64,000 nt of DNA. Origin: Desulfosarcina sp. BuS5 (GTDB taxonomy: Bacteria > Desulfobacterota > Desulfobacteria > Desulfobacterales > BuS5). The stretch is from assembly GCF_028752835.1 (NCBI RefSeq), contig NZ_CP087952.1, positions 2,585,041-2,649,040 of the forward strand. Reading direction: 5' to 3'. The translations under genes and the position numbers were made by a program. A model generated the notes under the pieces. The model did not search any database. It was not told the DNA's origin and was given only the letters and a program-made list of their open reading frames with translations. How positions within the stretch are numbered: the stretch's first letter is position 1; each line of letters starts with the position of its first letter. Below, piece by piece: positions 1 through 48,242 of this stretch.

Positions 1-3000
1 GAATGGAAACTTAAATCCGGAATCCCGCTGAATCATGCCTTAAGGCCCGGACTTATAAGAATCTTGAGAAACCCCGCCATCAGGGTCTTTCTTCCTGCCG
101 AAGTCATTTCAATCAAGCACAGCGCCCAGGGATTTCGTGGACGAATTAAACGCAGCCAGACTTTTATTGACCCGGACAAATGTACTCTTTGCGGACGTTG
201 CGTAGAAGTATGCCCTGTATCCCTTCCCTGCGGTGAAAAAGCAGTTAAACTAAACAGTCGTCGCAGCATTCCCGGCAGAGCTGTTATCGATAAAAGAATG
301 CAGCCTTTATGCCAGGCAAACTGCCCCCTGGGAGTCAACGCGCAGGGGTATATAAATCTTGCAAGGACAGGCAAGTTCGCCGAAGCTTTGGCCCTGATCA
401 GGAAAAATAATATTTTACCCGGAATTTGCGGGCGTATTTGCACCCATCCATGTGAAGATGCCTGCCGCCGCAATGAACTGGATGAACCACTGGCGATAAG
501 GGATATAAAAAGGTTTCTTGCCGATTACGAATTATCTCATTCCGGAGACATAAATAATAATATTGATCCAAAAATATCAAATATCGGGAAAAGACCTGAA
601 AAAATTGCAATCATCGGCTCAGGTCCCTCGGGACTCGCAGCAGCAGCGGAGCTTGCCAAATCAGGATATAACGTCACTCTTTTTGAAAAAGAGAACCAGG
701 CCGGCGGGCTGCTTCGTTACGGCATCGGTTCCCACCGGCTCCCAAGAAAGATTCTCGATACCGAACTTAAATATATAGAAAACCTGGGGGTGAATTTTGT
801 CACTTCAAGTAATATTGACCTCAAAATAGATATTGACCGTTTGGCAAAAGAATTCAATGCGGTAATCCTTGCTACAGGGGTATGGTCGGATCGCATGCTT
901 GGAGTGCCGGGCGAAGAGCTTGAAGGTGTTGAGGGGTGCATCTCTTTTCTTAGAAAATTTCATAATAGCGAAATTAACGGTCTGCCAAAAAAAATAGCAG
1001 TAATCGGAGACGGAAATGCAGCTTTCGATCTTGCGCGCACTGTTGCAAGAACAGGCTCTGATGTAACGATCCTTTCATGGTTTTCCCATGCATCGATCCC
1101 CGCAGATAAAGAAGAGATAAAGGCTGCCAAAGAAGAGGGGATTTCGATAATAGACCAGGCAAAGACCGTGGAATTTATCGGAACGGGCGAAAAACTTGAA
1201 TCAATCAGCTGCAAACCCACAATGCCTGGGGAACCGGACGTCACAGGGATATGCTGGCCGGAAATTATCCCGGGCAGCAAATCTTTTGAACTTGAGTTTG
1301 ATATGGCCCTGGTCGCTATCGGTCAGAAAAGTCCTTTTGCCGTAGGAGCTGGCTCCAGTGCCCGCCCTAAATGCGATATTAATGAGCATGGGTATATTTT
1401 AACTGATCAATCCATGCATACAAGTTTTACAGGGGTTTATGCAGCCGGTGATGCTGTTTCCGGGCCATCCTCGGTTGTCGAGGCCATGGCGGCAGGCAGA
1501 AAGACGGCCATGTCGGTTCATCTTGATTTAAGCAAAACTTCAGGGTTGAATATTGAACCGGAAAATCGTCCCTCGCGACCTGCCAGCAGGGATTTTCCTC
1601 AAATCCCACAGGATATACCCTCCCTTGCCCGGCCCACAATACCTGAGCGGCAGCCGGCAATTCGTATAAAAGATTTTGATGAGGTAGCCCTGGGCTTGAA
1701 AAAAACCCAGATAATCATTGAGGCCGAGCGGTGCCTGCAATGCGGAGTATGTTCGGAATGTATGCAATGCGTGGAAGTCTGCAATGTAGGAGCCATAAAT
1801 CACTCTGCCGCATCTGAAGAAATAAACATAAATGGAGGGGTAGTAATTATAGCTGATCCTTCCATGGCTCCTAATATAAAAGGTGAAGATATAATCCGGG
1901 CATATGGACCCGCTGCTGCAAGGCCGGATGTTAATGCAATGCTTATACGTGGTTATGCGTCCGCAGCAAGGGCTATGCACCTGCTTGGCGGAACCTCGCA
2001 GCGGCTTAAAGGACATGGAATATCATTTTCTCCACCTGAACCAGAGCTCTCATCCGATATTCGTATCGGGATATTCGCATGCAGATGCAACGATTCTTTT
2101 GGCTGGCTTGACAGTATGAGCAAATATCTAACAAACTTGCAGTCACGTAAAGATGTCGTTCATACTGAAGTTATGCCGGCCGCCTGTTTGGAGGAAGGAT
2201 ATACCGGAATAATAAGGAAAGTGCGCGAAAAAGGGATTACACGCATAGTCCTGGCATCATGCGTATGCTGTCCCTTAAATTTTATCTGCAGTTCATGCAC
2301 AGATCAGAGGAGCAGGCTAAAAAACGCCCTCTTTCAAGGCACCGGTATCAGCCGTTCAATGGTGGAGACATGCAACCTTAGGGGCGAAGTCCTCCGCCTT
2401 ATACGCGCAAATGTGTTTAATGCTTTAAACAGTTTTATGTGGCTTATCGACCGTTCCCTGAAAATGGCAAGAATGTTAAAGCCTCTTCCGGTACTTGCAA
2501 GAAACTATAATTTTACCACAGGGGTTATAGGTAATTCAGAGGCTGCAATTTGCAGCGCTTTGACTCTTGCCAGATCAGGTTTTGATGTTTTTTTGTTAGG
2601 GAGCCCTGAACAGCCTTTTTACGAAAAACCGGATCATCCAAATATTTACTGTTTTGAGAATTCGTCAGTTAAAGGCTTTACCGGCACTCTCGGTGATTTT
2701 CAAATTTTTATCGAATCAGGAGAAACAAAGCAGACCTTGCAGGTTGGAACCGTTATTATTGGTGAAAAATCAATAAAAAGGATACCATATCTTCATCAAG
2801 CAGGTCTTCCAAGCCGCATGGTTGCATATTCTATCCAGAAAGCAGGTAAACCCGACAGACCATTCTTGTATCCTGGAACCACTTCTGTTCGTGGCCTTTT
2901 TCTGGCAAATTCGCCCGGTATAAATGCCTCCAATTTAATTAAGGGAGCTGCCGCAGCAGCGCATGCGGCTGCCATAATGCCCAGCAGACCGCGTCAAAGC

Positions 3001-29556: not shown

Positions 29557-31196
29557 ATGAGTAAAGTTTCAAAATTAAAAAAAGTAGAACTGCCTGGAAA
29601 GACAAAGCAGTTGATCGTACTCGTATAATTAAGTATCAGAAAGCTGAGCTGAAACGTACTAAAAATGAACGAAATAAATACAAGTCTGAACTCCGGAAAA
29701 ATAGACAAGAATTAGAACAAGAACGTAAAAAGAACACATTGTCGGTTAATAGTAAGGAGGAATTGATTTTTATTTCTTTACGCCTATTTTTGGTCGGACA
29801 CGTTGGATTCAGAGCAATATCAAGGATGTTTGGCATTTTACAAGCATACCTTGGGATAACCAAAACACCGTGCCCTCAAACGATCATTAACTGGGTCACC
29901 AGATATTCACTATCAAAAATCTGGAACTATAAAGGGCTTTCTTCTGTTTCTTTTGATATGGATAAGATTGTAAATGGTGCTATTTGGATGATAGATACCT
30001 CAATAGCATTGGGAGCTGATAAAATTCTTGCTATTTTGGAGCTTAGAACTGATCATTTTAAAAATCATGAAGGTGCTCCAACTCTTGAAAACATCAATTG
30101 TGTAGCAATTTCAGTGGCGAAATCATGGACTGGAGAATCCATTGCAAATTTTTTACAAAAGGTGATTCTCATCACCGGAAAACCTGCTGCATATTTGAAA
30201 GACGGAGGAATGGACCTCATGAAAGGTGTCAGACTCCTAAATGAAAGAGGATTTTCAAGTTTCTCCATTGATGATATTTCTCATGTTGTTGCCAATCTAT
30301 TAAAAAAAGAATATACAAAACATCCTTCGTATGACTGTTTTATCTCTGCTTGCGGACAAGCCTCAAAAAAATTTAAGCAAACAGTACTTGCATTTTTTGC
30401 ACCCCCAAAGGTTTCGACAAAAGCTCGATTCATGAATATTCATCGAATGGTGAAATGGGCTGAAATGGTTCTTAAGCACTCACCACGGGGGCGAGTTTCA
30501 AAGGACTCTGTAGTTTCAAAACTTAGGAATTATCTTGGTAAACTTCCTGAATATAAACAGTTTATCAAGCGATTTCTTCGTGATGCATCTCCTCTTTTAA
30601 AAAGCCAGGAAATTCTTAAAGCTCAAGGCTTGAATATGAAAACCTACAAAGAGTGCAAAGAACTTTTAAAAAATATCCCTCAAAGCTCTCAAGTACGTAT
30701 CGGTTTTATTACCTGGATGGAAAAACAATTAATAGTCGCTGAATCATTGGGCATGGGCAATACTGGAATGCCTATTTGTTCTGATAATATTGAATCCCTG
30801 TTTGGACTTGGTAAAACACATGGTACAGGAGAAGTAAAAGATGCAAACCGAATTGCACTTCGTTTACCGGCTTTTTGCGGATCTGTGAATAGAGAATCCG
30901 TTCGGATGGCAATGGGCGTTACAGTAAAGGAACAACAGGAAGTTGAAAATAAGTTGTTGTCTTTAACTCGGCAGCGCCGAAAAATTTTACCAACCCCCGG
31001 AAGCCTTACAGATAGTTTGTCAACTGAGTTTGACTGTGGTTTAACTCTTCTACCGGTGCCAAAAAATGATGAAAAATCAAAAGATGTAACTGATATTACA
31101 GCAAATTTTGAACAATTAGGTGGGCCCGTAAATAAGTTTACAAAACAACCTTATGCGCCCAATAATGCCGAATATAATAACCGTGCCGCAGCTTAA
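29557..31196 (+). CDS. DDE transposase read through a probable -1 frameshift, copy 1
   Basis: The clear long frame starts only at TTG 29739, but homology-like sequence extends further upstream: a basic coiled coil (SRTAWKDKAVDRTRII, AELKRTKNERNKYKSEL) typical of this transposase type. That extension has no ATG. An ATG at 29557 begins a short frame (MSKVSKLKK) that reaches A AAA AAA G at 29577-29584; a -1 slip there enters the long frame and gives 546 residues. DDE candidates: Asp in WMIDTSIALG, Asp in LKDGGMDLMKG and Glu in CSDNIESLFGLGK. Copy 2 keeps the same seven A residues. Without a frameshift the ORF from TTG 29739 would lack the coiled coil. Confidence 0.75.
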
Positions 31197-40488: not shown

Positions 40489-41937
40489 CTATTTACGCCA
40501 GAATTCGGGAACAAGAAGTATAATAACGGTGAAAATTTCCAGCCGGCCTAAAAGCATGCACCATATAAGCAGCCATTTTCCCAAATATGGTATTTGTGAA
40601 TAGTTGTCCACAGGCCCCACAAGTCCAAAACCGGGGCCTATGTTTCCTATTGCTGATGCCACAGCCGTAATGGATGTTATCAAATCGACCCCCGTACCTG
40701 CAAGGAGCACTGAGCATAGGCCGAAAAGACCTATATAAAGGGCAAGAAACCCGAGGACACTCTTTACAACATCTTCAGAGACGGCCTTACCTCCTATTTT
40801 AATGTGCTTGACCGCATGGGGGTGTATCAAGGAGAAGATTTCTTTGTAGCAGTACTTCAGACATAGCATGATCCTCAGACATTTCATACCGCCGCCGGTA
40901 GAGCCCGCTGATGCTCCAAGAAACATACAGAGCAGAATGATAACTTGTGACATGGCCGGCCATTTTTCATAATCCGCAGTCGCATATCCGGTGGTGGTAA
41001 CTATTGAAACCACCTGAAAAGCCCCAAATCTGATTGCTTCTCCTATTTGCTTATATACTGAGCCATATAAATTAAAACTAATTATAATAATAAGAAAAAT
41101 TACCACGCCAATGAAAAAGCGGCATTCAGAATCACGCCAGTATGCAAGGGGCTTCCCTTTAATCATCTGGTAATGAAGGGAAAAATTAATCCCGGCCAGG
41201 AGCATGAATATAACTATTATGGTGTCAAAATATATGCTGTCATAATGTGCGATGGATAAATTTTTTGTGGAAAACCCGCCTGTGGGCATTGTGGTAAAAG
41301 TGTGGCATAATGCATTGTAAAGATCCATTTTTCCCATCATAAGCAGAATAACCCCTGCAAGGGAAATAATACCATATACCTTCCATAGAACCATTGCCGT
41401 ATCGCGTATACGAGGCCTCAGCTTGTCGGGGACAGGACTGGGTACTTCCGCCTTGTATAGCTGCATGCCTCCAACGCCGAGAAATGGTAGGATTGCAATA
41501 GAAAGGACTATAATACCCATCCCTCCCAGCCATTGAATAAAGCTTCTCCAGAAAAGGAGACCTTTAGAAATCCCCTCAATGTTTGTCAATATTGAGGATC
41601 CGGTTGTTGTAAATCCTGAAACAGATTCAAAAAAAGCGTCAACCCATGAATCGAACCCGCAACTCAAATAAAACGGAAGGGCTCCGAAAAGACCTACAGC
41701 CGTCCACCCTATGGCAACAATTGCTATACCTTCACGATGAGATATGGATTCAACGCGCGTATTCCTGAAAAATAAAAAAAGCGCCGATCCGGCACAAACT
41801 GTTATCCCGATCGATTTAGCGATTGGGATCAAGCTGTTGTCCTTGTAAAAAAGGCCGCATATGAGAGGAAACAACATCAACAGCCCCAAATAAATAATTA
41901 ATATGCCGATTGTTTTGGCAATAAAGCGCCAGCGCAT
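40489..41937 (-). CDS. trkH: Potassium uptake protein TrkH
   Basis: About 482 residues with eight or more membrane segments and four pore loops of the Trk/Ktr/HKT type, for example SVSGFTTTGSSIL, TFTTMPTGGFSTKN, IVTTTGYATADYE and AIGNIGPGFG. It forms the K+ pore and works with the RCK protein TrkA, whose stop codon overlaps the ATG at 41937 by one base (TGATG). Placed in the inner membrane. Complete length and all four filter loops make this a secure call. Confidence 0.95.
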   Translation of the reverse strand: MRWRFIAKTIGILIIYLGLLMLFPLICGLFYKDNSLIPIAKSIGITVCAGSALFLFFRNTRVESISHREGIAIVAIGWTAVGLFGALPFYLSCGFDSWVDAFFESVSGFTTTGSSILTNIEGISKGLLFWRSFIQWLGGMGIIVLSIAILPFLGVGGMQLYKAEVPSPVPDKLRPRIRDTAMVLWKVYGIISLAGVILLMMGKMDLYNALCHTFTTMPTGGFSTKNLSIAHYDSIYFDTIIVIFMLLAGINFSLHYQMIKGKPLAYWRDSECRFFIGVVIFLIIIISFNLYGSVYKQIGEAIRFGAFQVVSIVTTTGYATADYEKWPAMSQVIILLCMFLGASAGSTGGGMKCLRIMLCLKYCYKEIFSLIHPHAVKHIKIGGKAVSEDVVKSVLGFLALYIGLFGLCSVLLAGTGVDLITSITAVASAIGNIGPGFGLVGPVDNYSQIPYLGKWLLIWCMLLGRLEIFTVIILLVPEFWRK

Positions 41938-43301
41938 CAAAAAAACTCCAGTTTAACAGCCAGAATTTTTTCTATCCTGGGAATTGCCTCTTTTCTGGCA
42001 AAAATTATGACCCTGTCTCCCGGTTCAATCAGACTGCTGCCGGAGGGAATGATTATATCATTCCCGTGAATTATGCCTGTAATCAAGGCGCCTTTTGGAA
42101 AGGAGATGTCTTTCAAAGGTTTATCTACTATATCGGAAGTCTCCATAGCGACTGCTTCCAGGACTTCGGCCTCATCACCTTTAATCGATATTGCAGAGAG
42201 CACTTTACCTCTTCGAATATGTTGCAGAATAGAATTGATTGCTGAAAGCCTCGGATTAACAATCTGTTCCAGGCCTATCATCGACATTAACGGAAAATAA
42301 CTGAATTTACTTATTTTTGTTATTGTCTTGCTGATTCCCATTTTTCTGGCTAACAAAGAGGTCAGTATATTAGTCTCTTCATCATTTGTAAGGGTTATAA
42401 CAATATCAATATCCTGAACATTCTCTTCGCGCAGCAGTTCCTGGTCGGAACCGTCGCCATGGAGCACTACTGTTTTGTTGAGTCTGTCTGCCAGCATGCA
42501 ACAGCGATCCTGATCTTTTTCGATAATTTTAATATAAACCGGCTGCTTTTCCAAATGCCTGGCCAGCCTGAAACCAATACGTCCGCCCCCAACTATTAAG
42601 ACGCGTTTTACCGGTTCAGTATGCTTCCCGAAGGCGGCAAGGGCTTCCGAAAGTTTTATATCCTCACTTATAAAATATACAGTGTCTCCGGCACGAAGTT
42701 TGTCGTTTCCAGTAGGTATTATAAGTTCATCATTCCTTATAATAGCAGCAATAAGGGGAATATATATCCCTGTCCTTGAAAAAATTTCAGATAATTTAAA
42801 ATTCGCGACCTGTGTACCGTCTTCCACATGAATGCCGACAAATTTAACACGGCCGTCGGCAAATTCACCTATATCGACTGCGCCGGGCAGATTCATAAGC
42901 CTGTCTATTGTTTTTACAACCTCTATCTCCGGGTTGATTAGAGTATCTATGTGCGGCGCATGCTTATTGAATGTATCATGAAAATTATCGAAGTCGGCAT
43001 TTCTCAGTCTGGCCAGTTTTTTTGTTGTGGGAGAAATAATATCGGAAACCAGGCATGCCACCAGATTTGTTTCGTCACTGTTGGTCACGGCAAGAACTAT
43101 TTCGGCTTCTTTAATGCCTGCCTCTTCAAGAATTACAGGACTGCTGCCTGAACCATGCACGGTTTGAACGTCAATGTTATCAGAGACATGCCGGATAGCT
43201 TCCGGATCTGAATCGATCACAACAACATCTTTGTTTTCAAGAGCAAGATGACTGGCTATATGAAAACCGACCTCTCCGGCGCCTACAATAATTATTTTCA
43301 A
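41937..43301 (-). CDS. trkA: Trk system potassium uptake regulatory protein TrkA
   Basis: 454 residues starting at TTG 43301 with GGAG 10 bp upstream. Two RCK-N domains with NAD-binding loops (IIVGAGEVGFHIASHLA and LIVGGGRIGFRLARHLE), each followed by an RCK-C domain (FISEDIKLSEALAAFG; GDRVIIFARKEAIPRIE). Binds NAD(H)/ATP and gates the TrkH channel from the cytoplasm. Overlaps trkH, so both are co-expressed. The gene begins 20 bp after the sat-cysC stop on the same strand and may be part of its transcript. Confidence 0.95.
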   Translation of the reverse strand: MKIIIVGAGEVGFHIASHLALENKDVVVIDSDPEAIRHVSDNIDVQTVHGSGSSPVILEEAGIKEAEIVLAVTNSDETNLVACLVSDIISPTTKKLARLRNADFDNFHDTFNKHAPHIDTLINPEIEVVKTIDRLMNLPGAVDIGEFADGRVKFVGIHVEDGTQVANFKLSEIFSRTGIYIPLIAAIIRNDELIIPTGNDKLRAGDTVYFISEDIKLSEALAAFGKHTEPVKRVLIVGGGRIGFRLARHLEKQPVYIKIIEKDQDRCCMLADRLNKTVVLHGDGSDQELLREENVQDIDIVITLTNDEETNILTSLLARKMGISKTITKISKFSYFPLMSMIGLEQIVNPRLSAINSILQHIRRGKVLSAISIKGDEAEVLEAVAMETSDIVDKPLKDISFPKGALITGIIHGNDIIIPSGSSLIEPGDRVIIFARKEAIPRIEKILAVKLEFF

Positions 43302-43321: not shown

Positions 43322-45037
43322 TTACACAAACCCCTTCTGACCGAGAAACAGGAGTATCTCTTGGGCAGATTCGTCGGGTGTAAGATCTGTTGTGTTGATT
43401 CTTAATTCCGGTGATTTTGGAATCTCATATGGATCATCCACACCCGTAAAGCCCTTTATAAGCCCGGCCCTTGCTTTGGCATACATCCCCTTTCTGTCCC
43501 TTTTTTCACACTCCTCTATTGGCGTGGAAACATGAACCTCAACAAAGCCGCCATATGCTTCAATATTTAATCTTATTTCCGCCCTTGTCGCCTCATAGGG
43601 AGCTATAGGCGCACAAATGGCTATACCGCGGTTTTTTGTAATCTCACCCGCCACAAATCCGATCCTGCGAACATTGATATCCCTGTGCTCTTTGGAGAAA
43701 CTGAGTTCGCTCGACAGATTATGCCTTACTATATCACCGTCCAGCAGGGTAACCGGCCGTTCTCCAATCTCCAGAAAACGGGAATAAATAATTTTGGCAA
43801 TGGTAGATTTGCCTGATCCTGAAAGACCGGTTAAAAAAACCGTAAAGCCCTGTTTTATCGGTGAGGGATAGGCCTTCTGCAATTCCCGGACAACTTCCGG
43901 GAAACTGGCCCATTCCGGTATCTTTTTCCCCTTGCGGATACGTTCCTGGATATCGGAACCCGTAAGAGATATTCTCTGGGTGCCGGCGGTCACCTCATTC
44001 ACCGGCTGGTATTCATCTTCAAAAGGCAGATATACCATCTCCTCAAAAGGGATCACCTCTATACCGATCTCCGTGCTGTAATCTACGGCAAGCTTGCGGG
44101 CTGCGTCATCATCGTAAAAGGATTCCCCCTTGCTATTTAGGCCCGGGCTGGCATGTCCATGCCCAACTATAAAATGAGTACAACCGTAATTTTTTGAAAT
44201 AATTGCATGCAGAATAGCCTCTTTAGGCCCGGCCATTCTCATTGCCAGCGGAAGCAGACTTAATATAAAAGAATCCGGCGGATAGTGACGCTCCACCTCC
44301 CGGTAACATCTTACCCTGGTGTAGTGATCAAAATCACCTGTTTTTGTTATACCGGCGGCAGGTAAAAAGAGCAGATTCGCTTTTGCCTCTCTCATGGCAC
44401 GTATTGTCATTTCAAACTGAGGCCTGTGAATCGGCTGCCTGGTATGGAATCCGACAACTCTTTGCCAACCTAATTTTTTATATAACCCCCGCACCTCATG
44501 CGGGGCCAGTCTAAGCTGCTTGAAATCCGGATGAATGGGAAGACTCAGAACCTCAAGCTTTCCGCCAATGTAAAACTCTCCGGCCTTGTTCAAAATATAG
44601 GCCGCGCCGGTATGATTTCCGTCAAGTGTGCCAAAGGATTGCAGCGCCTCCTTTTCACGATCAAGGGGCCATATATCCTCCAGATGCATCACCGCCAGCA
44701 GGAAGCCCTCCGTATCCCTGAGCGCAACCGACTGCCCCGCCTCCATGGCATCAGCCTGTAGAGCTGAAATATCCAGACAGATTGGAATAGGCCATAGAAC
44801 ATTGCTCTGCAGCCGCATCCGGTCTAAAACAGATTCATAGTCAGACCGGGTCATAAAACCTTCAAGGGGTGAAAAAGCGCCTGTTGCGAGAAGCTCCAAG
44901 TCGCAAAGCTGGCGATGGTTTAAAGTTATGTCAGGCAGGTTCAGTGCGATATCCTGCAACAGCAGGCACCGTTCTTTATCCACAACAAGGTGTGCCAGCC
45001 CGCCGCCGTGCGCTTCTAAATCAGGTAGATATTGCAT
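43322..45037 (-). CDS. Sulfate adenylyltransferase-APS kinase fusion with altered sulfurylase motifs
   Basis: 571 residues. Residues 1-385 are an ATP-sulfurylase (PUA-like N-domain, then the catalytic domain); 390-571 are APS kinase. The kinase looks intact: P-loop GLSGSGKST, LLDGDIVRHNL, IAPYEATR. The sulfurylase motifs deviate: the usual QTRNPxHRAH reads HTRQPIHRPQ (198-207), losing the second His of HxxH, and the usual GRDHAGPG reads GHGHASPG (292-299). In the family these residues bind ATP and sulfate. The protein may therefore be a divergent or crippled sulfurylase with an active PAPS-forming kinase, rather than the dissimilatory Sat. The region upstream is the right end of an IS607-type element. 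No clear ribosome site near the ATG. Confidence 0.8.
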   Translation of the reverse strand: MQYLPDLEAHGGGLAHLVVDKERCLLLQDIALNLPDITLNHRQLCDLELLATGAFSPLEGFMTRSDYESVLDRMRLQSNVLWPIPICLDISALQADAMEAGQSVALRDTEGFLLAVMHLEDIWPLDREKEALQSFGTLDGNHTGAAYILNKAGEFYIGGKLEVLSLPIHPDFKQLRLAPHEVRGLYKKLGWQRVVGFHTRQPIHRPQFEMTIRAMREAKANLLFLPAAGITKTGDFDHYTRVRCYREVERHYPPDSFILSLLPLAMRMAGPKEAILHAIISKNYGCTHFIVGHGHASPGLNSKGESFYDDDAARKLAVDYSTEIGIEVIPFEEMVYLPFEDEYQPVNEVTAGTQRISLTGSDIQERIRKGKKIPEWASFPEVVRELQKAYPSPIKQGFTVFLTGLSGSGKSTIAKIIYSRFLEIGERPVTLLDGDIVRHNLSSELSFSKEHRDINVRRIGFVAGEITKNRGIAICAPIAPYEATRAEIRLNIEAYGGFVEVHVSTPIEECEKRDRKGMYAKARAGLIKGFTGVDDPYEIPKSPELRINTTDLTPDESAQEILLFLGQKGFV

Positions 45038-45079
45038 ATTGAGTAAATACTGTTCCTTTCTTCTTACTCATTCTTACCT

Positions 45080-45260
45080 TTTTGGCATAAACGATGAGAA
45101 ATTTCTGCTTCACGGACGCTGCCCGAACCGACTACTTAGGTCTTACTGCATCTCCACAGGCTTTAACCGTAAAACCCACGGCAAAATTTTTTAAATTGAT
45201 CGCTGCATTTAGGTCACGGTCTATGATTGAACCGCAGTTGCTGCAACAATACACTCTGTC
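45080..45260 (-). ncRNA. Predicted TnpB guide RNA (omegaRNA) scaffold at the right end
   Basis: TnpB guide RNAs are made from the 3' part of tnpB and the element's right end. Here the minus strand after the tnpB stop reads GGCAGCGTCCGTGAAGCAGA, then AATTTCTCATCG, the kind of end seen in many tnpB elements. The limits are approximate and no structure was computed. Confidence 0.35.
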
Positions 45261-46251
45261 CGACAGATTTAAATCTATTTTTTTATGGTTACATCTACTG
45301 CAAAGTTTTGAAGACGGATAAAATCTGTCAGCTTGAACAATTTTGACCCCGGCAATCAAAGCTTTATATTCAAGTTGACGTTTAAACTCATAAAATCCCA
45401 TATCCAGAATTGATCCGGCTAATTTATGATTTTTAGACATCCCGTTCACGTTTAGATCTTCAATCCCGATAATGTCGTATTCACAAACCAGATGATTAGT
45501 TAGTTTGTGAAGGGCATCTTTACGGATATTACCAATCTTCATATGTAATCGTGACAACTTTAGCTTTGCTTTTTTCCAGTTATTAGACCCTTTGACCTTT
45601 CTGGATAATGATTTGTTCAACCGTCTTAATCTATTCAGTAGGGCATTATGCGGCTTCGGCCCTTCAAAGAACTTCACCATTGCTGATAGTGGCCAGTTTC
45701 TTTACGCCCAAATCAACACCAACTGCTTCTTGGTTTTCGCAAACACCTGGTGTGATTTTCATTTTCAGCGAGATAGAAACGAACCACTTATCAGCAATGC
45801 GTGAGATTGTAGCTGATAAAATTTTACCGGAAATATTTAAGCATTCCCGCATTCTCACCCAACCTAATTTTGAAATGTAAATTTTCTTTTTCTCAACCTT
45901 GAATTTATCATTGGCAATATAAAAACTATCATTTACGCTTTTCTTTTTAAATTGAGGATATTTTGAACTGTTTTTGAAAAACTGGTTAAATGCCGTTTGT
46001 AAATTACTGAACGGCTGACTGTTGGCATCTCTTAGCACTTCAAAAACCCAAGGATATAGTTCTTTTTTAATAGCGTTGAACTGTTTTTTCAGCTCCAATC
46101 CGGCTGGCTTCAATCCGTCTTCGTATTGCCGTTTCCATTCAGCCAGTCCCCAATTCCACGTAAACCTTGATATGCCGCACGCTTTTGCAAAATAGCCTTT
46201 CTGCGCGTCATTGGGTTTAGGTTCGATTTTATGGGCCAATTGAATGTTCAC
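45132..46251 (-). pseudogene. tnpB: tnpB (RNA-guided nuclease family) with a +1 frameshift site
   Basis: Two overlapping frames make one TnpB of ~372 residues: 46251-45664 carries the N-terminal helix-turn-helix and RuvC I (VGVDLGVKKLA), and the other frame to 45132 carries RuvC II (IIGIEDLNVNGM), the zinc ribbon (CSRCNHKK, CSNCG) and RuvC III (DRDLNAAINL). All catalytic acidic residues are present. The only lesion is at GAA GTT CTT TGA AGG: reading +1 at CTT-TGA gives GEV-L-EGPKP, as the family expects. CTT-TGA is also the programmed +1 site of RF2 genes, so recoding is possible. The GTG start overlaps the tnpA stop (TAGTG). The call as pseudogene is provisional. Confidence 0.8.
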
Positions 46252-46602: not shown

Positions 46603-48242
46603 TTAAGCTGCGGCACGGTTATTATATTCAGCATTATTGGGCGCATAAGGTTGTTTTGTAAACTTATTTACGGGCCCACCTAATTGTTCAAAATTTGCTG
46701 TAATATCAGTTACATCTTTTGATTTTTCATCATTTTTTGGCACCGGTAGAAGAGTTAAACCACAGTCAAACTCAGTTGACAAACTATCTGTAAGGCTTCC
46801 GGGGGTTGGTAAAATTTTTCGGCGCTGCCGAGTTAAAGACAACAACTTATTTTCAACTTCCTGTTGTTCCTTTACTGTAACGCCCATTGCCATCCGAACG
46901 GATTCTCTATTCACAGATCCGCAAAAAGCCGGTAAACGAAGTGCAATTCGGTTTGCATCTTTTACTTCTCCTGTACCATGTGTTTTACCAAGTCCAAACA
47001 GGGATTCAATATTATCAGAACAAATAGGCATTCCAGTATTGCCCATGCCCAATGATTCAGCGACTATTAATTGTTTTTCCATCCAGGTAATAAAACCGAT
47101 ACGTACTTGAGAGCTTTGAGGGATATTTTTTAAAAGTTCTTTGCACTCTTTGTAGGTTTTCATATTCAAGCCTTGAGCTTTAAGAATTTCCTGGCTTTTT
47201 AAAAGAGGAGATGCATCACGAAGAAATCGCTTGATAAACTGTTTATATTCAGGAAGTTTACCAAGATAATTCCTAAGTTTTGAAACTACAGAGTCCTTTG
47301 AAACTCGCCCCCGTGGTGAGTGCTTAAGAACCATTTCAGCCCATTTCACCATTCGATGAATATTCATGAATCGAGCTTTTGTCGAAACCTTTGGGGGTGC
47401 AAAAAATGCAAGTACTGTTTGCTTAAATTTTTTTGAGGCTTGTCCGCAAGCAGAGATAAAACAGTCATACGAAGGATGTTTTGTATATTCTTTTTTTAAT
47501 AGATTGGCAACAACATGAGAAATATCATCAATGGAGAAACTTGAAAATCCTCTTTCATTTAGGAGTCTGACACCTTTCATGAGGTCCATTCCTCCGTCTT
47601 TCAAATATGCAGCAGGTTTTCCGGTGATGAGAATCACCTTTTGTAAAAAATTTGCAATGGATTCTCCAGTCCATGATTTCGCCACTGAAATTGCTACACA
47701 ATTGATGTTTTCAAGAGTTGGAGCACCTTCATGATTTTTAAAATGATCAGTTCTAAGCTCCAAAATAGCAAGAATTTTACCAGCTCCCAATGCTATTGAG
47801 GTATCTATCATCCAAATAGCACCATTTACAATCTTATCCATATCAAAAGAAACAGAAGAAAGCCCTTTATAGTTCCAGATTTTTGATAGTGAATATCTGG
47901 TGACCCAGTTAATGATCGTTTGAGGGCACGGTATTTTGGTTATCCCAAGGTATGCTTGTAAAATGCCAAACATTCTTGATATTGCTCTGAATCCAACGTG
48001 TCCGACCAAAAATAGGCGTAAAGAAATAAAAATCAATTCCTCCTTACTATTAACCGACAATGTGTTCTTTTTACGTTCTTGTTCTAATTCTTGTCTATTT
48101 TTCCGGAGTTCAGACTTGTATTTATTTCGTTCATTTTTAGTACGTTTCAGCTCAGCTTTCTGATACTTAATTATACGAGTACGATCAACTGCTTTGTCTT
48201 TCCAGGCAGTTCTACTTTTTTTAATTTTGAAACTTTACTCAT
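46603..48242 (-). CDS. DDE transposase read through a probable -1 frameshift, copy 2
   Basis: Mirror of the copy at 29557-31196. The long frame runs from TTG 48060; the coiled-coil extension and the short starting frame from ATG 48242 join at the same A AAA AAA G (48222-48215). It differs from copy 1 at two residues (T/I in ITK-PCPQ and D/G in GA-KIL). DDE candidates are conserved. Confidence 0.75.

Follow-up and report, generated by a model that had tools for sequence, protein, structure and literature searches.

The sat-cysC gene of Desulfosarcina sp. BuS5 joins an ATP sulfurylase and an APS kinase in a single polypeptide, and its sulfurylase half departs from the known catalytic motifs at both signature sites. 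This raises the question of whether the protein is the bifunctional enzyme that its database name implies and, if not, why a sulfurylase domain would be kept. We addressed this question for the gene within a 64,000-nucleotide stretch of the BuS5 genome, referred to here as the window (Table 1). We consider it highly probable that the protein is a monofunctional, sulfation-oriented APS kinase, which is fed by the dissimilatory Sat of the cell and in which the pseudo-sulfurylase is kept as a scaffold or modulator.

Table 1. Features in and around the BuS5 sat-cysC fusion gene; positions refer to the 64,000-nucleotide window.
Feature	Residues or codons	Position	Strand	Remarks
sat-cysC fusion gene	571 aa	43322..45037	(-)	predicted pseudo-ATP-sulfurylase + APS kinase; ORF and profile matches
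Domains of the fusion protein	8-165; 166-388; 394-571			PUA-like; catalytic-fold; APS kinase
HTRQPIHRPQ	198-207	44417..44446	(-)	degenerate QTRNPxHRAH; second HxxH His is Gln207
GHGHASPG	292-299	44141..44164	(-)	degenerate GRDHAGPG; Arg to His293, Asp to Gly294
Kinase P-loop GLSGSGKST	404-412	43802..43828	(-)	intact
Kinase motif LLDGD	431-435	43733..43747	(-)	intact
trkA-like gene		41937..43301	(-)	TrkA_N/TrkA_C; 20 bp downstream of sat-cysC
IS200/605-type element		45051..46251	(-)	frameshifted tnpB; Pfam HTH_OrfB_IS605, OrfB_IS605, Cas12f1-like_TNB

By family assignment the protein looks bifunctional. It scores 816 bits over residues 10-571 against the NCBIfam model NF004040/PRK05537 (bifunctional sulfate adenylyltransferase/adenylylsulfate kinase; curated cut-off 669 bits), and Pfam matches are found for PUA_2, ATP-sulfurylase and APS_kinase. 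An active bifunctional PAPS synthetase is marked by QTRNPxHRAH with both His residues and by GRDHAxPG, and the BuS5 fusion has neither. The translated ORF bore out the two altered motifs and the residue numbering given in a preliminary description of the sequence, including the statement that HxxH lacks its second His, which is exactly right; N201 is missing as well, alongside R293 and D294. Ten further pocket residues are still present (T199, P202, H204, R205, E209, D235, D237, R267, H295 and P298), and neither the substrate loop nor the interdomain linker departs from canonical length. The kinase P-loop and DGD motif, which had been called normal, are indeed in place, and G404, L405, G407, G409, K410, S411 and T412 are invariant in the alignment of fusion proteins. 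An AlphaFold2 model (mean pLDDT 84) predicts an intact fold for the N-domain, which superimposes on truncated yeast ATP sulfurylase (1r6x) at 2.0 A with a Z score of 48. The BuS5 fusion thus resembles the enzymes of Thiobacillus denitrificans and Entamoeba histolytica in having a degenerate sulfurylase site within a seemingly intact fold next to an intact P-loop and DGD motif. It does not match the pattern of the fungal allosteric ATP sulfurylases, as its kinase motifs are intact and its sulfurylase motifs are not.

From these motifs, the C-terminal domain is predicted to phosphorylate APS to PAPS, while the N-terminal domain would keep the ATP sulfurylase fold and no longer make APS. Sulfurylase function is almost certainly lost, because Gln207 stands in place of the final His of HxxH and the Arg of GRDHAGPG has become His; the sequence, the published inactivity of a homologue from T. 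denitrificans and human HxxH mutants all point in this direction. The closest PDB entries are those from Penicillium chrysogenum (1I2D, the best sequence match), Aquifex aeolicus (2GKS) and T. denitrificans (3CR8). The Aquifex enzyme has the same architecture and is about 47% identical to the BuS5 fusion along the fold alignment, but it carries QTRNPMHRVH and GRDHASPG and has a working sulfurylase. 3CR8 (QARQPMHRAQ and GGEHQPDG) shares the domain order, the HxxQ in place of HxxH and the intact kinase; however, it is more eroded, with T199 replaced by Ala and both the D235-D237 region and R267 lost, whereas the BuS5 fusion keeps all of these as well as the substrate loop. A kinetic study of the T. 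denitrificans enzyme is said to have found the sulfurylase inactive, the kinase active but nearly abolished by removal of the N-domain, and a second, canonical and active sat in the same organism; the title of the structure paper (Gay et al. 2009) also presents an enzyme without sulfurylase activity.

A further article likewise describes the 3CR8 protein as lacking sulfurylase activity (PMC13213808), which supports an inactive N-domain next to a working kinase. The APS kinase of E. histolytica is a second precedent, in which an inactive sulfurylase-like N-domain sits on an active kinase and is needed for its full kcat. Removal of this domain lowers the kinase kcat about 100-fold and single contact mutants lower it 21- to 60-fold, although the authors themselves caution that the deletion protein aggregates (PMC13213808). 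The Entamoeba protein differs from the BuS5 fusion in having no substrate-binding loop and a short linker. Both relatives are presented there as devoid of sulfurylase function and as acting via oligomer or interdomain contacts (PMC13213808). The Penicillium enzyme (QTRNPMHRAH and GRDHAGPG) shows the opposite loss within the same architecture: its sulfurylase is active, and its dead kinase-like domain is a PAPS sensor that binds PAPS and tunes the sulfurylase (PMC13213808, PMC3734648). In human PAPSS1, each of the single mutants H425A and H428A is dead (PMC11697783). APS kinases with a dead sulfurylase are therefore already documented in Thiobacillus and Entamoeba, and the BuS5 fusion is another such enzyme. 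By analogy with the effects measured in Entamoeba and reported for T. denitrificans, its N-domain would be retained to organise the oligomer and to sustain kinase turnover.

The distribution of the altered motifs was followed in fusion proteins drawn from three sources: 80 named genome contigs, whole-genome searches of relatives, and plasmids. In the clade of 113 distinct Desulfobacterota fusions to which BuS5 belongs, His is never found at position 207; Gln occupies it in 99 members and L, M, G, T or another residue in the remainder. Because the 99 sequences come from independent genomes, the altered residues are not a sequencing error, and this explanation as well as a pseudogene was ruled out by the intact frame, the low dN/dS and the sharing of the residues with relatives. 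R293 is retained in 29% and N201 in 56% of the 113 sequences; T199, D235, R267 and Y336 are invariant, E209, D237, H295 and P298 are nearly so, and the kinase motifs hold throughout. Both His residues of HxxH and GRDHA[GS]PG are kept without exception in ten canonical fusions, of which two are those of Aquifex and Penicillium and eight come from Rhodobacterales and Serratia plasmids. The residues seen in BuS5 are thus not the usual ones of an active bifunctional clade, since the canonical and presumably active fusions retain HxxH.

In a tree built with the two sulfurylase motifs removed, the 62 Desulfobacterota representatives that lack the His form a single clade (SH-aLRT 99). A quick tree had put 3CR8 outside this clade on a long branch, but when it was constrained into the clade the tree improved on the free search by 61 log units (p-AU 0.98); 3CR8 is probably a member, its placement being unsure owing to the long branch. 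Seven other Desulfobacterota fusions form a separate clade (support 98) that mostly keeps HxxH and has xxxHxDPF in place of GRDHAGPG. The different motif losses of the two lineages indicate that the sulfurylase site was lost by at least two routes. The loci of the second lineage (L119, L121, L136, L117, L120, L149 and L015) represent either an independent decay of the sulfurylase or a changed site.

Among the sulfate reducers of a large lineage, an APS kinase with a probable pseudo-sulfurylase is the rule, and what had been described as the oddity of one gene is instead the normal state of this lineage. A search of the open-access literature found no paper that states such a lineage-wide rule or that calls the 'bifunctional' name misleading, and a search of viral contigs found no relatives of the BuS5 fusion. 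For this Desulfobacterota lineage, the name 'bifunctional sulfate adenylyltransferase/adenylylsulfate kinase' is misleading, as it implies a second ATP sulfurylase in many sulfate reducers, where such an enzyme is almost certainly absent. Inspecting position 207 and GRDHAGPG would serve as a simple annotation rule.

The same alignment bears on the idea that the N-domain acts as a transferase on another substrate, such as another oxyanion or nucleotide. Most members share a fixed Gln207, and His293 is frequent among them, which suggests that the site is not random; yet position 207 also accepts L, M, G or T, position 293 varies widely, and neither the neighbouring genes nor the family point to another substrate. 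This option, raised in the preliminary description, found no positive support and is in our view extremely improbable.

Selection on the two halves of the protein speaks to a second option raised there, namely that the domain is a relic. In comparisons with same-genus relatives, dN/dS is 0.07-0.12 for the N-domains and 0.02-0.03 for the kinase. At matched kinase identity (about 0.85-0.90), the identity of the catalytic domain is 0.66-0.77 in the BuS5 clade versus 0.86-0.87 in the canonical fusions. The sulfurylase domain is thus relaxed yet constrained. A neutral relic heading for deletion would explain why the N-domain evolves faster than the kinase and why catalytic residues were lost by differing routes across lineages. 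Purifying selection at dN/dS values of about 0.1, however, argues against a drifting relic, as do the conserved pocket residues; moreover, the domain is full-length in the members read, its modelled fold appears intact, and the Entamoeba kinase needs its sulfurylase-like domain for full kcat. We therefore regard a relic as very unlikely.

Within the domain, the former active-site columns vary less than the remaining ones (mean entropy 0.79 versus 1.40; permutation p below 1/5000). Either a structural role or retained ligand binding may account for this. The main rival to a scaffold is accordingly an N-domain that works as a regulatory nucleotide sensor, which would bind APS, PAPS or ATP and tune the kinase. 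This would invert the arrangement in Penicillium, where a dead kinase domain binds PAPS and tunes the sulfurylase. The low pocket entropy, the invariant T199, D235, R267 and Y336 and the nearly invariant H295 and P298 would fit such a sensor, as would the inhibition of APS kinases by their substrate APS (PMC3734648), which is relevant in an APS-filled cell. On the other hand, the conserved columns may be mere structural core, and the known relatives from T. denitrificans and Entamoeba are described as acting through oligomer or interdomain contacts. Nucleotide sensing appears compatible with the sequence data, and we hold it as possible at low confidence. That it extends across the lineage, so that a dead sulfurylase senses nucleotides wherever a sulfation kinase works with APS as a bulk respiratory intermediate, is rather doubtful. 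What stands of the regulatory role suggested in the preliminary description is a domain that would act on the kinase as its scaffold or modulator, in the way measured for Entamoeba.

A pseudo-sulfurylase kept as a scaffold or modulator implies that APS comes from elsewhere, and a separate dissimilatory Sat beside the qmo genes is the probable source. The preliminary description had asked for a second, canonical sat in the genome, and one further ATP sulfurylase was found in BuS5: a canonical protein of 424 aa with QLRNPMHRSH and GRDHAGVG, whose gene adjoins qmoC (508 bits to NF038018) in the dissimilatory sulfate reduction locus. A stand-alone sat is also present in 34 of the 36 fusion-bearing genomes of the order, with HxxH and GRDHAGVG in all 12 proteins read. 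The fused sulfurylase is therefore redundant in nearly all of these genomes, and the bulk supply of APS by the dissimilatory Sat would have left its site free to decay. Several relatives without the fusion have a stand-alone APS kinase instead.

It is also conceivable that the Gln207 enzymes retain a slow but real ATP sulfurylase activity and are still bifunctional PAPS synthetases. Thirteen clade members (among them L114, L115, L065, L071 and L097) are canonical at T199, R200, N201, H204 and GRDHA[GS]PG, and hence at the checked catalytic residues besides 207, although residue 198 is changed in some of them; L115 and L065, for instance, read QTRNPxHRAQ and GRDHASPG. In addition, no separate sat was found in two of the 36 fusion genomes (G001 and G040), though both assemblies are fragmented and G001 is 83% complete. 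Against this stand the inactivity of the characterised HxxQ homologue, the dead single His mutants of human PAPSS1, and the additional lack of N201, R293 and D294 in the BuS5 fusion; a slow activity is thus unlikely. Since the BuS5 N-domain is less eroded than those of T. denitrificans and Entamoeba, weak activity or ligand binding may nevertheless persist. The 13 least-eroded members suggest an order of decay in which His207 was probably lost first and other catalytic residues later, and they provide a set for asking whether loss of His207 is by itself enough to abolish activity. The G040 fusion (locus L004) has HCAQ and GRDHAGPG; the assembly is 95% complete with 9% contamination in 560 contigs, and the absence of sat is probably an assembly gap. 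G040 nevertheless offers a natural test case for residual sulfurylase activity.

For the preferred APS kinase, the PAPS produced would most likely go to sulfotransferases that decorate surface polysaccharides and not to assimilatory reduction. A cysQ gene lies near the fusion on the same strand in 25 of 79 loci, upstream in 17 of them (identified by TIGR01331, 269 bits, in one representative); galE is found in 23 and a UDP-glucose-dehydrogenase-like gene in 19 of the 79. Directly upstream of the fusion in the same-genus locus L033 are gmd (above cut-off) and a gene resembling that for GDP-L-fucose synthase (478 bits, slightly below the cut-off of 500). Canonical fusions have comparable surroundings, namely a sulfotransferase and cysQ on a Serratia plasmid and nearby polysaccharide genes on Roseobacter-group plasmids. 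At the genome level, 27 of 36 fusion genomes encode PF13469 sulfotransferases, versus 5 of 22 others (Fisher p 1.4e-4, with kinship ignored), and the association with cysQ is not significant (16/36 versus 5/22, p 0.16). In the BuS5 genome no CysQ scored above the cut-off, and the one candidate was rejected as a far better fit to inositol monophosphatase; a PAPS reductase candidate was likewise dismissed, its match being only 27 bits. The sole PF13469 sulfotransferase found in BuS5 (L160:8497-9174, at about 1214.5 kb of C1) lies in a glycosyltransferase cluster and seems to stop short at 225 aa next to an IS. Taken together, neighbours, sulfotransferase co-occurrence and BuS5 gene content make sulfation of surface polysaccharides a likely use of PAPS for the lineage and an uncertain one for the BuS5 strain. 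Sulfate reducers that make PAPS for sulfated surface polysaccharides are a lead worth following.

The immediate surroundings of the gene in BuS5 include a mobile element. The tnpB of this IS200/605-type element is split by its frameshift into two ORFs (45664-46251 and 45132-45680), and the right end of the element, as inferred from a second truncated copy, lies about 13 nt upstream of the start codon of sat-cysC. The native leader of sat-cysC is present in the relatives L034 and L033; in BuS5 the element replaces it, so that expression of the fusion may be altered in this strain. On the other side, a TrkA/TrkH operon was considered as a functional partner and rejected, as another gene follows the fusion in the same-genus locus L033; the trkA-like gene is probably unrelated in function to sat-cysC. 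Two ORFs of identical length (485 aa) are found at 46603-48060 (-) and 29739-31196 (+), the former being transposase-like in appearance yet without a Pfam match. Elsewhere in the genome, at C1:2786436-2786684 (-) in locus L159, a fragment of about 60 aa corresponds to an APS kinase C-terminus with 40% identity to the BuS5 fusion; it lies near mobile-element genes and appears to be a remnant of another copy.
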